Source: Microvenator marinus
GTDB lineage: Bacteria; Myxococcota_A; Bradymonadia; Bradymonadales; Bradymonadaceae
Direction of reading: 5' to 3'
DNA: 64,000 nt
Assembly: GCF_007993755.1 (NCBI RefSeq)
Contig: NZ_CP042467.1
Span: forward strand, 4,798,001 to 4,862,000
This document shows positions 5,746 through 14,871 of the stretch, in pieces. Positions within the stretch are counted from its first letter, which is position 1. Every line of letters starts with the position of its first letter. The translations under genes and the position numbers were made by a program. The notes under the pieces were generated by a model that ran no database searches, was not told the origin of the DNA, and was given only the letters and a program-made list of their open reading frames with translations.

Positions 5746-7280
5746 TTTTTGATGCCTCAAACCAAAAGCTTCCGCTCAAACTCAAAGTCGGCCTCTGCGT
5801 GATTGGGAGCGGGGCAGGGGGAGCTGCGGCGGCCATGGTTGCCGCGGAGGCAGGCATGGATGTGCTGATCATTGAGGCCGGCCCTTTTGTGCCGCCTGGC
5901 GTCATGAATCAACGCGAAGAAGATATGATTCCCGCGCTATTAGAGGCGAACGGCGGGCAGACATCTTCAGACCGAAACTGCATGATTGTACAGGGTCGCG
6001 CGCTCGGTGGGTCAACGCTTCATAATATCAATCTTTGCAAACGAATCCCTGAGCCGATTCTAAGGGAATGGCAACGTGAACGCGGCATGGAGCACCTGGG
6101 GCTTGAGACCTGGACCGCTCTCTATGACGAGGTCGAGTCACTGCTTCAGGTGAGTCAGATTCCAGAGTCGCAGGTGAGCAAGCACAACCAGGTCTTTCGG
6201 GAGGGGACTAAAAAGCTCGGCTGGAAGGGCGGGCTCTTGAGCCACAATCGGTCGGGCTGCGTTCAGAGTGGGTTTTGCGCCGTGGGGTGTGCGTACGATG
6301 CGAAGAACAACGCGGTCAAAGTCATGCTCCCTCGCATCCTGGCTGCAGGTGCGCAGATTCTTACGCATTGTAAAGCCGTCAAGCTCGTTCAGGAGCGAGG
6401 TCGTGTGGTCGGGGTCGATGCTCGCGCGTTGGACCCGCTGACCCGAAAGCCCATCGGAAGAGTCGAGATTCAATGTGAGCAAGTCTGTGTGTCGGGGTCC
6501 GCAACCGGCAGTGCGGCGTTGCTGCTCCGCTCCAAGATAAAGGACGACTCGGGCTCCACAGGCAAAGGTTTGACGATTCACCCAGCACTAGTTGCGGCGG
6601 GTGAGTTTGACGAGTCTATTGAGGCGTGGAAGGGAATCCCGCAGTCGTGGGAATGCACTCAGTTCTTGGATTTTGAGCGGGCACATGCGGAGGAACCCTC
6701 AACTGAGATTGGCATCAGGACTTGGATTATCCCCGCGTTTGCGCATCCCATGAGCACGGCCACCATTCTCCCAGGCTGGGGCGACGCCCACGCTGAACTC
6801 ATGCAAAAGTACTCACGGCTCGCCGTTCTCACCGGCATGATTCACGACACGTCTAAGGGTGTTGTGACCCCGCGTCAGGAACTAGAGCAACGTATCGACT
6901 GGAAGCCCAATAAAGGCGACCGCGCGGAACTCCTCTTTGGTCTGAAGCGATCGGCGGAGATCCTCTTTGCCGCAGGCGCCAAGAGAGTGTTTGTACCTTC
7001 TAAAAAACTCCTTGTTTTGGAATCACCTGCAGACCTTGACCAGGTGGACCAAATCCGGCTTGATGCGGGCGAAATGCCGATGACCGCGGTTCATCCAATG
7101 AGTACCGTGTCCATGGCGGATGACCCACTCAAAGGGCCCGTGGATAGTCGCGGTAAACACCACCATATTGAAGGCTTGTGGGTTGCCGACGGCTCCCTCT
7201 TCCCTGGCTCGATTGGAGTCCCGCCTCAGGTTTCCATCTACGCACTGGGCTTACACGTTGGGCGTGCGATCGCTACCTAA
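5742..7280 (+). CDS. GMC-family FAD-dependent oxidoreductase
   Basis: Glucose-methanol-choline family flavoprotein (512 aa) that oxidises an alcohol or sugar and passes electrons to a membrane acceptor. The FAD-binding Rossmann motif is at residues 22-27 (GSGAGG) followed by IIEAG; GRALGGSTLHN is the second FAD signature; the C-terminal active-site block reads AVHPMSTVSMADDP, then GLWVADGSLFPGSIGVPPQ. The start is taken as GTG at 5742 because the preceding purine run AGGGGG is well placed and GTGA overlaps the stop of the small subunit, a typical coupled junction; an upstream in-frame codon at 5703 would cause a 43-base overlap. It has no export signal of its own and probably travels with the Tat-borne small subunit. 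Substrate unknown; sterol, long-chain alcohol or sugar are all possible. Confidence 0.88.
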   Translation: MIFDASNQKLPLKLKVGLCVIGSGAGGAAAAMVAAEAGMDVLIIEAGPFVPPGVMNQREEDMIPALLEANGGQTSSDRNCMIVQGRALGGSTLHNINLCKRIPEPILREWQRERGMEHLGLETWTALYDEVESLLQVSQIPESQVSKHNQVFREGTKKLGWKGGLLSHNRSGCVQSGFCAVGCAYDAKNNAVKVMLPRILAAGAQILTHCKAVKLVQERGRVVGVDARALDPLTRKPIGRVEIQCEQVCVSGSATGSAALLLRSKIKDDSGSTGKGLTIHPALVAAGEFDESIEAWKGIPQSWECTQFLDFERAHAEEPSTEIGIRTWIIPAFAHPMSTATILPGWGDAHAELMQKYSRLAVLTGMIHDTSKGVVTPRQELEQRIDWKPNKGDRAELLFGLKRSAEILFAAGAKRVFVPSKKLLVLESPADLDQVDQIRLDAGEMPMTAVHPMSTVSMADDPLKGPVDSRGKHHHIEGLWVADGSLFPGSIGVPPQVSIYALGLHVGRAIAT

Positions 7281-8391
7281 TGAAGCCAATACCCGCTTGT
7301 ACAAGCTTCCACTTCAGGCTCGGATCTACCTTCAAAAACTGAGACCACATGGTGGCCGCAATGTCGCTGACGCCGCTCTGGTCTGAGAGATAGGCCTGCC
7401 ATTTCTTCGTTGGTAGTTGAAAGAAGGACTCAAAGAACCGGCGCGTTTGCGCAGCATCAAAGCCGAGAAGCACATCGAGCCCGAAGTTTTGAAAGTCCCG
7501 GGCCCTTCGCATGTCTTTAGGCCAGACCACCTTACTGAGGTCGTCCACACCGCCGGCGATGGCATCCGCCAACGTTCCCGCACTTCTCAGGGTCCGCGAC
7601 AAACTGTAGCCCGTGGCAGGATGCACAAACCCCGCCGCCGCACCAAACGCAACCGCCTCACTCCGCGGAATCTCTTCGCCCATTGGTATCACACACCGTT
7701 CAACTTCATGGACTTGCATAACCCGTACGCCTCGCCCCTCAAGCCGCAAGTACAAAAGCTCCTCAAGTCTTGAGATACTAAGGGCAGGGCGCGCGGAAAG
7801 GACCGTTTCTTCTAGAAACCATAGGTTCGGATTCTCGTGTCCACCAAGACGCATGGCGTACAAAAACGTGGCGGGGTCTTCTTCAACCCCAGGTATAGGG
7901 CGATAGTCCATCAAGGCCATATCGTGACCGTCAATTGGCTCGCCATCTACCTCGGCCAGAATGCCGTACGCCGTCTGAAATGCCGGGTCCGGGCTCCGAC
8001 CGCCAGAAAACACGCGCTGAAAGCCGCTCGCGTCCACCACAATTTTGGCGCGTGAACGGTCCGATTCAATGGCCCTTCGGTCCTCTATCAGTACCTTGGC
8101 TTGCTGCTCCGTATTGACCAAAAGCCCCTTCAAAAGCTCGTTATCAAAACGACCATAAGTCGCGTCCAGAACCTGTAGTTCGTTCTGAAAGCCAACCGTT
8201 GGACTTGCCCACGTCCATGCCAATGCTGAATGGAATTCAGGCGGCACCTCACTCAGCCACGCGCCGTATGCATTGGGCCACGGCTCGTCAACGTCGGGCG
8301 CGATCCACAAGACATCCACCCCTCGTTTGGTCAATTCACCCACGATTGCGTAGCCAGCAGGCCCCGCTCCAACGACCAGCACGTTGTGCAT
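7273..8391 (-). CDS. crtL: lycopene cyclase, CrtL/CrtY-type flavoprotein
   Basis: Lycopene beta- or epsilon-cyclase-type enzyme that closes the end rings of lycopene in carotenoid synthesis, associated with the membrane. The dinucleotide fold is at the N-terminus (VVGAGPAG). Family signatures follow in order: NAYGAWLSE, FQTAYGILAEVDG, DMALMDYR, TFLYAMRLGG, FLEETVLSARPALS and the C-terminal GAAAGFVHPATGYSLSRTLRSAG. About 372 residues matches bacterial and plant cyclases. An ATG at 8391 begins directly with the dinucleotide fold and is chosen; a GTG at 8400 would overlap the adenosyltransferase stop by 8 bases. The gene is last in the cobalamin-riboswitch operon, and no other carotenoid gene is nearby, which is unusual. 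It overlaps the convergent GMC gene by 8 bases. Confidence 0.87.
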   Translation of the reverse strand: MHNVLVVGAGPAGYAIVGELTKRGVDVLWIAPDVDEPWPNAYGAWLSEVPPEFHSALAWTWASPTVGFQNELQVLDATYGRFDNELLKGLLVNTEQQAKVLIEDRRAIESDRSRAKIVVDASGFQRVFSGGRSPDPAFQTAYGILAEVDGEPIDGHDMALMDYRPIPGVEEDPATFLYAMRLGGHENPNLWFLEETVLSARPALSISRLEELLYLRLEGRGVRVMQVHEVERCVIPMGEEIPRSEAVAFGAAAGFVHPATGYSLSRTLRSAGTLADAIAGGVDDLSKVVWPKDMRRARDFQNFGLDVLLGFDAAQTRRFFESFFQLPTKKWQAYLSDQSGVSDIAATMWSQFLKVDPSLKWKLVQAGIGFIR

Positions 8392-8392
8392 C

Positions 8393-9022
8393 TTACTCAC
8401 GAGCGCTCGATGCCTGGTTCGGTTGCCATAGAACTTCGTCCTTGGCAGCCTTTACGGTCACCCAACGGCTCCAGACAAAGAACGCATCACTCAGGCGGTT
8501 CAGATACGCGATGGCCAACTCGTCCACGCTTTCGTGCTCCTGAAGGGCTACAGCATGTCTCTCCGCACGCCTGCAGATGGTGCGGCACTGGTGGAGCTCG
8601 GCGTTCGCGCGCGTGCCTCCGGGCAACACAAAAGACCTTAGGGCTGGAAGCGACTCGTTATGATGGTCAATACTCTCCTCCAACGCCTTGATATCGCGCT
8701 CAGTGACCCTCGGCATATACTCGCCGACGTCCTCCGGAAGAGTGGCCAAAATGGAGCCCAGATTGAAGAGTTCGTGTTGCACGCGCAAAAGAGTCTCGCT
8801 CAACGCCTGAAACTCAGGGTCCGAGGCGTACTCCTCCAACGACACACGGACTGCGCCCACAAATGAGTTGAGCTCGTCCACCGTGCCGTAGGTTTCAATT
8901 CGCATGGAGCTCTTGGGGACCTTTTGACCACCCACCAATCGCGTTTTGCCGGCATCTCCCGCCCTTGTGTACACACGGTTGATGGCGAGTTGCGGGTCTT
9001 TAAATGATTTCTTGTCGCTCAC
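8393..9022 (-). CDS. pduO: cob(I)alamin adenosyltransferase, PduO type
   Basis: ATP:corrinoid adenosyltransferase of the PduO/MMAB family: it transfers the adenosyl group from ATP to cob(I)alamin, giving adenosylcobalamin, in the cytosol as a trimer. The ATP-binding N-terminus is clear (YTRAGDAGKTRLVGG), followed by RIETYGTVDELNSFVG, and the C-terminal signature FVLPGGTRANAELHQCRTICRRAER. Length 209 aa is normal. Translation starts at GTG with GGGAG six bases upstream, 14 bases after the lipoprotein stop. Its place downstream of a B12-sensing riboswitch, a TonB receptor and a propeller lipoprotein makes salvage of imported cobalamin the likely role. Confidence 0.93.
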   Translation of the reverse strand: MSDKKSFKDPQLAINRVYTRAGDAGKTRLVGGQKVPKSSMRIETYGTVDELNSFVGAVRVSLEEYASDPEFQALSETLLRVQHELFNLGSILATLPEDVGEYMPRVTERDIKALEESIDHHNESLPALRSFVLPGGTRANAELHQCRTICRRAERHAVALQEHESVDELAIAYLNRLSDAFFVWSRWVTVKAAKDEVLWQPNQASSARE

Positions 9023-9036
9023 GGATTCTCCCTGGT

Positions 9037-10176
9037 CTAGTTCTGACTCGGCCGGAATTTTACACGTCCAAGTCGATTTGAAAGGCTCAGTAAGTAGTAT
9101 GCGTCTACGCCACCTTCTGGTGCGTCAACCACCTGAATCATGTGCGGTCCTTCCAGTAGCGACGACCGCCCAACCTTCACCGGTTCTGCCAATACCTCGT
9201 CACATCGCGTATCGACTCGCCAGATTTCATCCGTGTTGAAGGCCGTCACATAGAGCATGCCGTCTGGACCTGCGCTGATATGATGAAGTGTATCCTCTTC
9301 CGATTCATAAAGCACGATGGGGTCTTCGGGGCCGCGAACCCAGGTCAAGGTCTCGAGGTCCAGCTTGTAGATCTCTGGCGCGGTCGCCGATGTGAAATAG
9401 AGATACTTGGAGCCGGGTGGCTGTGCTGGACGGCTCAGGGCGCCGCTCCGCTGTGGCGAGGGCACCGGGAATTCCACGGTACGCATCGTGCCGTCACTGG
9501 CGATGACGTCTACCGCTCCGGACGAGGTGGCCATCGCTTTGCGATCCACAAACTGTACGGCTCCCGTGGATGTGAGCACCAAAACTTCCTCATCACCGAG
9601 CTGAAACACATCTGCAAATTGTGTGTTCAAGAACGCCATCTCGATGACTTCTTCTTCGTCGGTCTCAAGGTTGCGCTTGACCACGGTGGATGGCCCAAAT
9701 CCCTGTGAGGGACTGATATAGTTGACGTCCGTCACCCAGAGATGCCCCGCGAACTCAGCCACTCCAGATGGGTTCCTAAAGGATGGTGCGGCCCACGCGT
9801 CAACATTCTCTCCGCCTTGGGTAATCTGCGAGACCGTGCGCCCGATGTAGTTTGTGACCCAGACCACCCCAGAACCCACGAACAAATCATAAGGGTTTTG
9901 ATCGTTTCCGAGGTCTGCAAACGGCGAGTACTGCTCGAGCTCGATATCCCAGGTAGAAATGGTGTTGTCGCGGCTCTCTACCACATAGAGCCAGCCGTCT
10001 TTGTGGTGCAGCGCGTTGGACGCAAGCCCGGTAACGTGAAGTTCCTCTGCCGCCCAATAGCCCAGGTTTTGGGCGCCACACGTTTCTTCGGATTGGGTGA
10101 AGGAAGGCGCCCCGGAATCCGAAGAACAACCCGCGATTAAGCTCGCGAACAACACTATATTTAGGCTTCTTTTCAT
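9037..10176 (-). CDS. beta-propeller lipoprotein, candidate BtuG-like surface cobalamin-binding protein
   Basis: A 379-residue lipoprotein: lipobox LIAGC with Cys17 and no Asp at +2, so sorting to the outer membrane is likely. The mature part consists of repeated short beta-sheet units of the YncE/NHL sort, for example GWLYVVESRDNTISTWD, YDLFVGSGVVWVTNYIGRTV, SGVAEFAGHLWVTDV, DEVLVLTSTGAVQFVD and DGMLYVTAFNTDEIWRVD, consistent with about seven blades. The start is ATG at 10176 with AGGGGG four bases upstream; it overlaps the TonB receptor stop as ATGA, so the two are translationally coupled. In Bacteroides, BtuG is a seven-bladed propeller lipoprotein that caps BtuB and captures B12. The same fold, lipidation and position here suggest an analogue; this is inference, since sequence similarity to BtuG was not tested. 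Confidence 0.72.
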   Translation of the reverse strand: MKRSLNIVLFASLIAGCSSDSGAPSFTQSEETCGAQNLGYWAAEELHVTGLASNALHHKDGWLYVVESRDNTISTWDIELEQYSPFADLGNDQNPYDLFVGSGVVWVTNYIGRTVSQITQGGENVDAWAAPSFRNPSGVAEFAGHLWVTDVNYISPSQGFGPSTVVKRNLETDEEEVIEMAFLNTQFADVFQLGDEEVLVLTSTGAVQFVDRKAMATSSGAVDVIASDGTMRTVEFPVPSPQRSGALSRPAQPPGSKYLYFTSATAPEIYKLDLETLTWVRGPEDPIVLYESEEDTLHHISAGPDGMLYVTAFNTDEIWRVDTRCDEVLAEPVKVGRSSLLEGPHMIQVVDAPEGGVDAYYLLSLSNRLGRVKFRPSQN

Positions 10177-12098
10177 AGTGCCCCCTCGGTGCTGATTTGG
10201 GCAGAAACGAAGATCGTCCGGCCGGGAAGGGGCGCCTGTAAAGAATCGGTGAGGTCGCGTCGATCGAAGAGATTTAGACCACGCGCCCTTAGGCTCAGCC
10301 AGGCGTTTGGGGACCAAGCAAGGCCAGCGTCCATGGTCGCGAATGCGGGGGCTTTGATGCTGCCAAAGGTGTCAAGGTTGGTCTCTGAGCGCCCGCTCAG
10401 GCCCGCGTTCAGACTCGCTTTTTGGGTCCCGGGAATCCATTGGTCGAGCCGCAATCTGGCTCCTACTCGGCCCGAAAAATCAGGCTGATGAGGCACCTGA
10501 TCGGACGTCTCGGCAAGCTCCGCACGCGTCCATGTTCCGCTGAGCTCCAGGTCAACCGGTTTTGCCAGAGTCCAATCAAGCCGAGCCTCAAGGCCATAGG
10601 CGCGGGTGGGGTCGATATTCTGAGCTTCGGTGACCGCGGAGGTGATCGGAAGAAAGAGGATCATGTCCTCGGTGTTGTTTTGGAAGAACGTTAGGCCCGC
10701 CTGGATGGTCTCGAAGGCTACCTCGGCACCGATATCCCACACGAGCGCGCGCTCGGGCTCCAAATCTGGGTTTCCGCGAATACTCTCGAGGTTCAGAAAG
10801 AGCTCGTCAAAGTCCGGTCTTCGTAAAGTGCGGGCGACATTGCCCACCAAACGAAATCCTTCGGTGGGTATCAAGGCTGCGCCAAAGGCTGGCAAAAATG
10901 CGCTGACACCACCGTCCCCTTGGGAGATGTTGGCACGTATCGCGCCGGTAAATTCTAGCCAATGAGTCGGCATGTAGTGTGCCAAGGTTGACGTCTCGGC
11001 GAGGCTTCTAGAACGCTCAAGACTAGATCTGATCTCACCTGATTCTTCACCTTGGTACGATTCGTGCCGAAACCTAACGCTCAGGTCAACTTTCCATGGA
11101 GACTCAAGATCTGAAGAATAAACGGCGGCATTTAGCGTGCCGCCACTGCTCCAGAAGTCGCTATCGGTCTGAAGGATGCCTCCGCCGGAAAAGGCGTCCG
11201 GGTTCAGATACCTGTTTTGCCTTAACTGAACGTCGAGTGATTCCTCTAAATCCAGTGAGAAGTAGGTGTTTTTGATCACGTTGAGTTGTTTGGCATTTAG
11301 CGTGCCAAGACCAAACGCGTCTTCGACGCGGGCATCCGAAAAACTCTCTTGGAATTCAGCAGGTCCAGCACTCCCTCGCTCGGTGCCCGAGAACCTGATG
11401 GATGCCCCTACGTGTCTGACATTGGAAAACGCATGGCTGGCCGTGAGCGCCGCTCCGAGCGCGCGGTGGTCGTTGTTGATCCGTCGGTGCTCTTGCCCCT
11501 GAGCGTCAACGAAGTCGTAATCACCCTCAGATGCCCGTGTTTGAGCCGAAAAGCTGACCTGACTCTTGGTGCCAGCTAGCCATGCGCCGGCTTGTAGACC
11601 CATGGTTTGATTCGACCCGCCGAGTGCGCCTACATGGCTTCCCCAGCCTGGCGAATGCCGAGTCTGAGTCCTGAAATCGAGCGTGCCGTTGAGGCCTGTG
11701 GCCCCGGCCGAGATGCCTGCTGCACCGCGATAGATATCCGCCGATACTACGCCCGGTAAGAGTAGGGTGCCGAGGTCGGTTCCCACGCCGAAGGGCACAT
11801 CCAGAGGTACGGAGTCGATGGAAACCGCGACCTGACGCGGGCTAGAGCCGCGCACGAGTACGTAGGCCGGTTGGCCAAGTCCTCCATGGGATCTGATTTC
11901 TACGCCGGATTCTCGCTCGAGTTCTTCCTGTGAATCCCCGTCTAAAAAACTATCGCGAAGGTCAACCTTGGACGTCACACCCGTCGGATGTATCGGCGCG
12001 CTCGCCCGCGTTTCCACACGATGCTCCTGTGCCGCAAGGAACTTGGGCACAAGCACGGTAGCGGCCACCAAAAGGCCTATATGAGCGGAACGTTTCAA
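10173..12098 (-). CDS. btuB: TonB-dependent outer-membrane receptor, BtuB-like
   Basis: Outer-membrane beta-barrel receptor that imports a scarce ligand using TonB-ExbBD energy; the upstream cobalamin riboswitch points to vitamin B12 or another corrinoid. The predicted protein has 641 aa with a signal peptide (MKRSAHIGLL... ending at FLAAQ), a plug domain (LERESGVEIRSHGGLGQPAY, VLVRGSSPRQVAVSIDSVPLD, GVVSADIYRGAAGISAGATGLNG) and a barrel of alternating strands; conserved late elements are NVARTLRRPDFDELFLNLESIRGNPDLEPE and LFDRRDL. Initiation is assigned to TTG at 12098 since CGAGG lies seven bases before it and a proper signal peptide follows; another TTG at 12137 would add 13 charged residues. 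Its last four bases overlap the lipoprotein start. A usual C-terminal aromatic residue is absent (ends EGAL). Confidence 0.88.
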   Translation of the reverse strand: MKRSAHIGLLVAATVLVPKFLAAQEHRVETRASAPIHPTGVTSKVDLRDSFLDGDSQEELERESGVEIRSHGGLGQPAYVLVRGSSPRQVAVSIDSVPLDVPFGVGTDLGTLLLPGVVSADIYRGAAGISAGATGLNGTLDFRTQTRHSPGWGSHVGALGGSNQTMGLQAGAWLAGTKSQVSFSAQTRASEGDYDFVDAQGQEHRRINNDHRALGAALTASHAFSNVRHVGASIRFSGTERGSAGPAEFQESFSDARVEDAFGLGTLNAKQLNVIKNTYFSLDLEESLDVQLRQNRYLNPDAFSGGGILQTDSDFWSSGGTLNAAVYSSDLESPWKVDLSVRFRHESYQGEESGEIRSSLERSRSLAETSTLAHYMPTHWLEFTGAIRANISQGDGGVSAFLPAFGAALIPTEGFRLVGNVARTLRRPDFDELFLNLESIRGNPDLEPERALVWDIGAEVAFETIQAGLTFFQNNTEDMILFLPITSAVTEAQNIDPTRAYGLEARLDWTLAKPVDLELSGTWTRAELAETSDQVPHQPDFSGRVGARLRLDQWIPGTQKASLNAGLSGRSETNLDTFGSIKAPAFATMDAGLAWSPNAWLSLRARGLNLFDRRDLTDSLQAPLPGRTIFVSAQISTEGAL

Positions 12099-12144
12099 AA
12101 TGCGACCTCGCTCTCTTCTCGCGAAGAGCGTTGTCAATGTGGTG

Positions 12145-12290
12145 CGTTCGCTCGGATATCCTGACTTGCGAATAGGGCATTGGGCCTGCGTCCTAGCCGC
12201 CTTCCCTCGTTAGAAGTGGCGTCTGGCTAGTACTCATCGCTTACAGTGGCGCGACCGTCCCGGATTTGCACCGGGTTCCCCGCGCGAACG
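12145..12290 (-). promoter_or_regulatory. cobalamin (adenosylcobalamin) riboswitch
   Basis: Read on the minus strand, the conserved B12-box core is present: GGGAACCCGGTGCAAATC, then CGGGACGGTCGCGCCACTGTAAG, a GCCAGACGCC arm, and near the 3' side GTCAGGATATCCGAGCG. The ends close as a stem, CGTTCGC (bases 12284-12290) with GCGAACG (12145-12151). Between the aptamer and the TTG start at 12098 is a GCGA-tetraloop hairpin, CTCTTC/GAAGAG, just before the ribosome-binding GAGG; with no U-run, a translation-controlling expression platform is more likely than a terminator. It should repress the btuB-like operon when cobalamin is plentiful. Confidence 0.93.
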
Positions 12291-12340: not shown

Positions 12341-12856
12341 TCAAAAGACATCTGACACGGAGAGAGCCCGCGTCGAGAGTCCCATCTGAGCCGCATATTC
12401 CCAATCGACGTCCACACCACGGACCACCAACACGGCACTTGCACCCATTTTTCTGGATGAATCGAAGAAGGTCGCAGGAAAGTAGGACTCGCCGCTACGC
12501 CTCGGAACGCGATGGCCGAGCTCAATGCCTCCGGGTCTCTTGGCTTCCAACGTGTAGTAGAATCCATGGCCCATGTCTTCATCGAGCCCAATCAGCTCAA
12601 CTCCAGCTCCCCGCAACACATCCGTCGTTCGTTCAACTTCAGCAGGTTTCCAGCTTGCTGAGTTCAACACGAGCCCTCGAATTCCAGCGGAAGCAAAGGA
12701 CGGCAAGATGTACTCGGTTGATGGGGTGATCGGCGTACTCAGCGCTGCGTAACCGACGCCTTTGCGAATACGTTGCACCCACTCCACGCCGATCCAAGGA
12801 TTGATCGTCTGCTCATCAAACTTCAGCTCGCCTAGGAAATAGTGGGTCAAGGGCAT
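12341..12856 (-). CDS. hypothetical protein (171 aa)
   Basis: No family recognised. The 171-residue product has no signal peptide or membrane segment and mixes short hydrophobic strands with charged loops (for example GIRGLVLNSASW, GAGVELIGLDEDMGHGFYY, ASAVLVVRGVDVDWEYA), consistent with a small cytosolic alpha/beta protein. Two tryptophans and a Gly-His-Gly (MGHGF) cluster stand out. The ATG overlaps the end of the PKD lipoprotein gene by 10 bases, so it is probably cotranscribed with it; the reading frame could also end a transcript before the riboswitch promoter. Coding potential rests on codon use and the junction only. Confidence 0.6.
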   Translation of the reverse strand: MPLTHYFLGELKFDEQTINPWIGVEWVQRIRKGVGYAALSTPITPSTEYILPSFASAGIRGLVLNSASWKPAEVERTTDVLRGAGVELIGLDEDMGHGFYYTLEAKRPGGIELGHRVPRRSGESYFPATFFDSSRKMGASAVLVVRGVDVDWEYAAQMGLSTRALSVSDVF

Positions 12857-14871
12857 GTATCAAAGGCCTCGTTCTGCGCCCCGGGCGTACCGAGGTCAGA
12901 CTTGCCGCCGGCTGTGACGTACACAGTACTTCCCTCGCACCAGGCGCTTGCTGAGTCGTTCAAAACCTCATCGATTTGGGAGCGTTTCAGCGCCTTTGTG
13001 GCGCCGGCCGTGTTTGACCAACCGTTTGACTCATCGAACGCAACCTGAGCTATTTCATTGCCATTGCAGGTGATGATGATTTCGTCGTCTGAGTTGGCGA
13101 GGAGGAAATTGGCGTAGACGTAATCAGGCGTAAAGCCCGGAGACGTTGAACGTGCCAGCGTTTTATACGCGCCGGGCCCAATCACGAGGTCTTCGGAAAT
13201 GGTATGGGTGTCAATGCCAAGGTCCTCGATCACGCAATTGCTCAAACTCCACGTGGAATTCGTGGGATTATGAATTTCAAACCATTCACCAACCGTGTCT
13301 GAGAGTGCGTCCGGGTCGTTCATAAACTCCGTGATCACCACATCGCCTTCTGCGGCAGGCTGAGGCATTCCGGGCGCTTGAGCACTCACGACCAGCGAAT
13401 CTGGAGCGCTATCTACCGAGCCATCGTTTACGATGAGCTGGATCACGTAAGAACCTTCAAGGTCGGCCGTAAACGTAGGCATGGCCGCACTGGTATTGGA
13501 GAGCGCTGCGGCCGATCCTTGGGGCTTGGACCCGATGCTCCACCGGTAGACTAAGGTGTCTTGGTCGGGGTCGGTGCTCAGCGTTCCGTCGAGCTGAACC
13601 ACGGAGCCGGCGAGCACCGATTGGTCAGAACCTGCTGCAGCGACGGGGGCGCGGTTAGACTGTGTGGCGCTGATAGTGACGGTAGACGGGCTACTCTCCA
13701 GAGAACCGTCCGAGACCACCAATTGAACGGAATAGTCGGCTTCCACATCCGGCACAAACCGTGCCGAGGCTGTGGTCTTATCGAAAAGCTCCGATTGGCT
13801 CGCCCCGGGCTTACTTACCCAGGACCAGACGTACGTGAGGGTGTCGTCGTTCGCATCAAAAGACGCGCTGCTATCAAGAACCACCTCTTGCCCAAGAGCG
13901 ACCTGCCGATTTTGACCCGCATCTGCAACGGGCCGAATATTCTCGGTTGATGCCGTGATGATGACCGTATCCGGATTGCTCTCCGACTGACCGTCCTGAA
14001 CCTTGAGGCTCAGCTCGTAGGTACCGTCTACATCCGCATTAAACGTAGGGTTGACGATATCCGTCTCGCTCAGCGCCGCTGCGGACCCAGCAGGCTTGGA
14101 AACCATCTCCCAAACGTAAACGAGCGGGTCTGAATCAGCATCATAGGAAGCGATTCCGCTAAGCTGCACGCGCGACCCCGTCGCCACCTCCTGATCCGCA
14201 CCGGCGTTGGCGATGGGCGGGGTATTGTCCAAGAACGCCCGAATCTCAACCGTCGCCTGAGTGCTCGTGGCAATACCATCGCGGACTCTGAGCTCTACCG
14301 TGTAGGTACCGGCACGGTCCGCCACAAAACTCGGTCGCGGAATGGACGGCGAGTTAAGCTCGGCGGTGCTGCCCGGCGGTCGGGTGACGATACTCCACGC
14401 AAAACTAAGTGGGTCGGCATCGGGGTCGGAACTCCGTGTGCCATCGAGCTGAACAATCTGGCCCACCTGCACGTTTTGAGCATTCCCCGCATCGGCCACG
14501 GGAGGGCGGTTCGAGCTCGTTGGATCAAGCTCCACCTTGATCAGCACAAAATCAGGTTCAGAATCGATTTTGCCGTCGTGCACAGTCAAGGTAGCTTCGT
14601 AAACACCAGCTAGATCAGGCACAAAATTGACGTCCATACTGGCGGTCGCGTTGAGCCGAGCCTGCGAGCCCTCGGGCCCGATCAAACTCCACCTAAATGT
14701 CAGCGGGTCCATCTCCCGGTCCCACGAGCCTTCACCGCTCAAGAATACGGTCTGGCCAAGCTCAATGGTTTGATCCGGCCCCGCGTTCGCCAAGGGCTCG
14801 CGGTTCGTATCCACCGGAGTCTCAGCCTCCGCACAGCCCACCAAAAATACGAAAACGAGTAAGTATCGCAT
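12847..14871 (-). CDS. surface lipoprotein with five PKD-like repeats and a C-terminal lamin-tail domain
   Basis: Predicted lipoprotein of 674 aa: lipobox FLVGC with Cys13, then five Ig-like PKD/K319L-type repeats of about 97 residues. Each repeat has the pattern PxANAGxDQxVxxGxxVxLDG...DPDxDxLxYxWSxxxKPxGS and ends with YxxxLxVxDGxxxSxPDxVxI. After about residue 505 a lamin-tail (LTD) domain begins at GDVVITEFMNDPDALSDTVGEWFEIHNP and runs to the C-terminus with VIGPGAYKTLARS and ASAWCEGSTVYV. Such proteins are probably cell-surface adhesion or scaffold components; the exact role is unknown. No clear Shine-Dalgarno precedes the ATG. It is divergent from the DUF1015 gene, 69 bases away. Confidence 0.85.
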   Translation of the reverse strand: MRYLLVFVFLVGCAEAETPVDTNREPLANAGPDQTIELGQTVFLSGEGSWDREMDPLTFRWSLIGPEGSQARLNATASMDVNFVPDLAGVYEATLTVHDGKIDSEPDFVLIKVELDPTSSNRPPVADAGNAQNVQVGQIVQLDGTRSSDPDADPLSFAWSIVTRPPGSTAELNSPSIPRPSFVADRAGTYTVELRVRDGIATSTQATVEIRAFLDNTPPIANAGADQEVATGSRVQLSGIASYDADSDPLVYVWEMVSKPAGSAAALSETDIVNPTFNADVDGTYELSLKVQDGQSESNPDTVIITASTENIRPVADAGQNRQVALGQEVVLDSSASFDANDDTLTYVWSWVSKPGASQSELFDKTTASARFVPDVEADYSVQLVVSDGSLESSPSTVTISATQSNRAPVAAAGSDQSVLAGSVVQLDGTLSTDPDQDTLVYRWSIGSKPQGSAAALSNTSAAMPTFTADLEGSYVIQLIVNDGSVDSAPDSLVVSAQAPGMPQPAAEGDVVITEFMNDPDALSDTVGEWFEIHNPTNSTWSLSNCVIEDLGIDTHTISEDLVIGPGAYKTLARSTSPGFTPDYVYANFLLANSDDEIIITCNGNEIAQVAFDESNGWSNTAGATKALKRSQIDEVLNDSASAWCEGSTVYVTAGGKSDLGTPGAQNEAFDTCP

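Follow-up and report, generated by a model that had tools for sequence, protein, structure and literature searches.

A cobalamin riboswitch operon in Microvenator marinus encodes a BtuB-like receptor and a candidate BtuG-like lipoprotein lid

BtuG, the surface propeller that serves the B12 receptor BtuB in Bacteroides, is reported to be exclusive to Bacteroidetes (PMC6143338) and lacking in the other organisms that rely on BtuB (PMC12751083). A locus in the genome of Microvenator marinus (Myxococcota_A) raises the question of whether a receptor with such a lid also occurs elsewhere. We analyzed a window of 64,000 nucleotides (host genome positions 4798001-4862000; the genome is one contig of 5.85 Mb). 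The operon is close to certain to serve B12 uptake, and we consider it likely that it encodes cobamide (B12) capture and uptake with a BtuG-like surface lid. No report of BtuG in Myxococcota was found in the open-licence literature and, judged on that literature, a lidded B12 receptor outside Bacteroidota appears to be unreported so far.

Organization of the operon

All features of the locus are on the reverse strand. The only Rfam match in the window is the aptamer of a cobalamin riboswitch at 12154..12281 (RF00174, model positions 45-169; 66.1 bits against a gathering score of 31.5, E 4.1e-14). The leader folds no differently from shuffled sequences (z -0.28), and so folding defined no expression platform. 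Downstream are genes for a BtuB-like TonB-dependent receptor of 641 amino acids, with a TTG start, a signal peptide, a plug and a barrel (10173..12098), and for a 379 amino acid lipoprotein that is a candidate for a BtuG-like lid (9037..10176). The TGA of the receptor gene overlaps the ATG of the lipoprotein gene in the sequence ATGA (10173..10176). The original prediction had proposed this order and overlap, and the RF00174 match and the sequence bear both out. It ended the unit at 9037, one B12 gene too short: 14 bases past the propeller gene is a gene with a GTG start for a PduO-type cob(I)alamin adenosyltransferase (8393..9022; 187.7 bits with TIGR00636, above the cut-off of 108.45).

The next gene encodes a lycopene cyclase family protein (7273..8400). 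Because its start overlaps the stop of the adenosyltransferase gene, it may be on the same transcript and under control of the B12 riboswitch, but it has no part in B12 uptake. The two genes also adjoin in another locus (L045). On the 5′ side of the riboswitch (12341-14871, reverse strand), genes overlapping by 10 bases encode a 171 amino acid protein without a Pfam family and a 674 amino acid lipoprotein with five PKD-type domains and a lamin-tail domain.

The receptor

The TTG at 12098 gives the receptor a normal signal peptide, MKRSAHIGLLVAATVLVPKFLAAQ. The protein matches the Pfam families Plug (28.1 bits) and TonB_dep_Rec_b-barrel (123.1 bits), both above their cut-offs. A profile of 16 receptors, searched against the PDB (177,635 sequences), placed Escherichia coli BtuB first (E 1e-38), and the Bacteroides thetaiotaomicron BtuB structures 8bmx, 8p97/8p98 and 8blw_A were also within the top twelve matches. 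The colicin I receptor CirA, a siderophore receptor, is the lone non-B12 receptor in the top twelve, close behind BtuB. BtuB is the nearest solved receptor family, and the grouping with siderophore receptors that had been named as evidence against a B12 receptor was not seen.

Each of the 16 receptors scanned matches NCBIfam B12-receptor models, none being shown to reach the cut-off, and every NCBIfam model is below cut-off for the host receptor (79.7 bits with the B12 model TIGR01779, cut-off 599.7). The receptor group has one member in the host (758 bits; the next-best protein scores 110). The E. coli and host receptors have riboswitch control in common, but E. coli BtuB functions without a lipoprotein lid, whereas the host receptor is paired with a candidate lid.

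The propeller lipoprotein

The lipoprotein begins MKRSLNIVLFASLIAGC and is single copy in the host. Its lipobox is MKRSLNIVLFASLIAG^C (IAG-C17, 10126..10137); Cys17 is invariant in a 28-row alignment and is the predicted site of lipidation. An AlphaFold2 model made with 20 relatives has a pLDDT of 90.2 and a pTM of 0.88, and it depends on the alignment, since a single-sequence run gave a pLDDT of 33. In our reading, the predicted strands form seven blades of four strands each, and strand 38-48 completes blade 7. The earlier claim of a seven-bladed propeller with a lipobox is thus upheld by the model and the sequence motif, with fold and lipidation both predicted.

The DA/BC face has better conserved loops than the AB/CD face (p 3e-4; loops were assigned to faces from the predicted strands as we read them), as would suit the binding of a ligand or partner there. 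A charge asymmetry between the faces like that of BtuG2 was not seen; acidic charge extends over both faces, unlike the polar BtuG2.

In the PDB, the propeller profile reached BtuG1 of B. thetaiotaomicron (8blw_B, E 8.2e-9; 8ptd/8ptf, E 4.8e-8). In that ranking, 1l0q and hydrazine synthase beta came before BtuG1, and YncE and Vgb lyase after it. Alignment with BtuG1 by hhalign (Prob 95, E 2.2e-8) spans 155 columns, blades 1 to 3.5, with about 21% identity over those blades. In Foldseek, virginiamycin B (Vgb) lyase was the top match (TM 0.81 by target length); it, Lp49 and YncE all came out higher than several BtuG entries (query-length TM about 0.53-0.56). Propellers of the YncE / virginiamycin B lyase type have the same fold as the host protein; we know of no B12 control or lipidation in this type. 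Because Vgb lyase, Lp49 and YncE outrank BtuG by fold, and 1l0q and hydrazine synthase beta do so by sequence, the resemblance to BtuG may be that of any YVTN/YncE-type propeller.

PF16819 (DUF5074), the family of BtuG in Pfam and the one named for the propeller neighbors of DUF4465 proteins (PMC13398666), matched none of the 28 propeller family sequences and no frame of the host genome. Since this test failed, and fold and sequence do not separate the protein from other propellers, membership of the BtuG family is unproven and we do not claim it. The propeller nevertheless probably works like BtuG. Of the comparisons proposed with the original prediction, the profile search reached BtuG1 (E 8e-9), while Foldseek places the fold nearer to Vgb lyase. 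The predicted BtuBG-type capture is partly supported: its riboswitch, BtuB-like receptor and lipobox propeller are upheld.

Conservation of the operon

Relatives of the propeller are present in 33 of 58 related genomes and, at E 1e-10, in 69 of 379 Myxococcota genomes. Seven relatives named in a scan with a four-sequence alignment are from Bradymonadaceae, Lujinxingiaceae and 'Myxococcales' MAGs, which points most likely to a host in Bradymonadales, a closer placing than the 'deltaproteobacterium-like' host of the original prediction. Members of the host's own family almost always have the receptor gene first, then the propeller and then the adenosyltransferase. The available sequence reaches 2.6 kb or more beyond the propeller on its upstream side in 38 loci, and all of these were counted. 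A same-strand cobalamin riboswitch lies upstream in 26 of these, and a receptor lies directly upstream of the propeller in 26. This recurrence of the riboswitch is not chance, given that the whole 5.85 Mb host genome has two cobalamin riboswitches, including that of the operon.

A second riboswitch locus with a BtuH-like lipoprotein

The other host riboswitch lies outside the window (genome 1494447-1494287, reverse strand), at the head of a locus (host genome 1493142-1494447, in L063) that encodes small lipoproteins of 161 and 224 amino acids. Neither matches a Pfam family. In relatives (L103, L105, L106, L108, L109 and L111), the riboswitch of this locus is near an SRP RNA and tRNA genes, a conserved neighborhood.

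The family of the 224 amino acid protein (alignment A6, 19 rows) has a single PDB match at E up to 10, and this is BtuH2 (7biz), at a weak E of 0.14. For the matched region, hhalign with BtuH2 gives E 7e-5. Contacts of BtuH2 with B12 include Gln333, Asn399 and Phe401 (PMC8941943). The printed BtuH2 chain has Q, N and F at these positions with a single numbering offset (100) only. Under that offset, the Asn and Phe that are invariant in 19 of 19 A6 rows line up with Asn399 and Phe401. With a BtuH2 fragment added, the BtuH-like profile reached the H domain of BtuG1 (E 0.0022), which is not independent evidence. The likeness to BtuH and BtuGH (PMC8941943, PMC12751083) thus covers the region near Asn399/Phe401 and extends to fusion with the propeller in relatives. 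It has limits: only about 110 residues align with BtuH2 (E 0.14), and the 224 amino acid protein lacks PKD domains and has an unrecognized C-terminal half.

The BtuH-like family is linked to the propeller in other genomes. The order is riboswitch, 161 amino acid type, BtuH-like protein and propeller in L050 and L048, and riboswitch, 161 amino acid type, BtuH-like protein, receptor and propeller in L142. Propeller and BtuH-like domain form one open reading frame in five loci (L062, L135, L141, L148 and L149), like BtuG1 of B. thetaiotaomicron, which is a BtuG-BtuH fusion. Each of the links to BtuG and BtuH is weak alone; joined, they make a B12-binding role likely for both the propeller and the BtuH-like protein, as read from sequence.

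Lipoproteins of the 161 amino acid family carry a GCGGF.W motif (L063:5775-6260, also in L048, L050, L142, L147 and L149). They recur in B12-riboswitch operons and are sometimes duplicated or fused to a BtuH-like domain. A similar PDB search with this family gave streptavidin at E 0.15, about as weak as the BtuH2 match above (E 0.14); we regard it as a probable chance match and set kinship with streptavidin aside.

B12 metabolism of the host

The host genome has no match to CobS, which suggests that the host is a B12 auxotroph. For CbiA/CobQ it has short glutamine amidotransferase matches and no full-length one. Seven proteins with a B12-binding domain score above cut-off. Bradymonabacteria are described as predators, almost all of which lack de novo B12 synthesis (PMC7460792). 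B12 scavenging fits the host; that prey is the source is speculation.

In two genomes outside the host's order, a FecCD permease gene follows the propeller gene (L057, L058). The host has an ABC locus at 3.451 Mb (L151) with a periplasmic BtuF-like lipoprotein, FecCD and an ATPase. Its permease is nearer to those of L057 and L058 (206 bits) than is the permease of a heme-type locus (L150, 147 bits), and L151 is a candidate BtuFCD by sequence. L150 (host genome 2576000-2588000) also has FecCD/ABC genes, together with a TonB receptor and periplasmic lipoproteins of its own, and by inspection resembles a heme uptake locus.

Proposed mechanism and alternatives

Low intracellular B12 would permit expression of the operon through the riboswitch, if regulation runs in the expected direction. 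The receptor and the lipid-anchored propeller would be made from their overlapping genes. Most likely, the propeller would cap the receptor from outside the outer membrane, hold B12 on one face and then deliver it to the receptor, like BtuG in Bacteroides. Once in the cytoplasm, B12 would be adenosylated by the PduO-type enzyme. The second riboswitch locus may contribute the BtuH-like lipoprotein.

The alternative that survives best, although we think it unlikely, is a B12 uptake operon in which the propeller faces the periplasm, where it would pass B12 from the receptor to BtuF or help in another way, like a lipidated YncE. Its similarity to YncE is about equal to that to BtuG, by both profile and Foldseek. 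In E. coli, the propeller YncE has a receptor, PqqU (YncD), as its neighbor, which we count in favor of this alternative. However, the BtuH-like domain that adjoins or is fused to the propeller recalls the surface BtuGH in Bacteroides, and a separate BtuF-like lipoprotein exists (L151); both argue against this alternative.

It is very improbable that the propeller is instead an SGL/Vgb-type lactonase or lyase acting on the imported corrinoid or another ligand. Vgb lyase is the top Foldseek match, and the Pfam families Vgb_lyase (25.1 bits) and SGL (24.9 bits) are matched in part and below cut-off, but these matches span only about blades 1-2, whereas conservation extends over the loops of one whole face, and a comparison by eye recognized no complete catalytic site. 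Least probable is a receptor for siderophore or heme that B12 merely regulates: the host receptor scores 98 bits with a general siderophore-receptor model against 80 with the B12 model and CirA is close behind BtuB, but both scores fall far short of the cut-offs, BtuB tops the PDB ranking, the receptor is repeatedly accompanied by the riboswitch and PduO, and the heme-type locus is separate (L150).

Origin and circular permutation of the lid

The surface lid thus preferred can be compared with BtuB-BtuG of B. thetaiotaomicron (PMC10404256, PMC6143338). Both systems have a cobalamin riboswitch and a TonB receptor adjoining a lipobox seven-bladed propeller, and receptor and propeller each have detectable sequence similarity. 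The host differs in belonging to another phylum, in lacking PF16819 and in having PduO inside the operon, and the surface-export signal of Bacteroidetes is not expected in it. Of the origins first suggested for the system, independent or by transfer, a recent transfer from Bacteroides finds no support, as the propeller and its gene order are conserved across Myxococcota, and the propeller has about 21% identity to BtuG1 over blades 1-3.5 and lacks PF16819.

The propeller also differs from BtuG in being circularly permuted in most other Myxococcota. Blade 1 comes first in the host's order and in L056, which is from a different family of the class. In other Myxococcota families, 25 frames have blade 3 first and blades 1-2 last (L057, L058, L059, L062 and most of L131-L149, all outside the host's order). 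The best-scoring blades are 3-4 for the N-terminal parts in 25 of 25 of these frames and 1-2 for the C-terminal ends in 24 of 25, and we therefore reject an artefact of similar blades. The natural permutation of the lid may aid in testing which blades matter for contact with the receptor and the vitamin.

We suggest tentatively that lidded B12 capture (BtuB, a BtuG-like lid and a BtuH-like binder, with G-H fusions) could be old and common to Myxococcota and Bacteroidota, and no invention of Bacteroidota. The Myxococcota lid would then have two permuted forms (blades 1-7, or 3-7 followed by 1-2) in the same place in the operon. If the lid function is true, lipoprotein-assisted B12 capture would be widespread among free-living bacteria that are B12 auxotrophs and in part predators, and the trio would offer a way to study the co-evolution of lid and receptor. 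In one locus (L131:1005-7309), the receptor gene is followed by two tandem propeller genes and then a BtuH-like gene.
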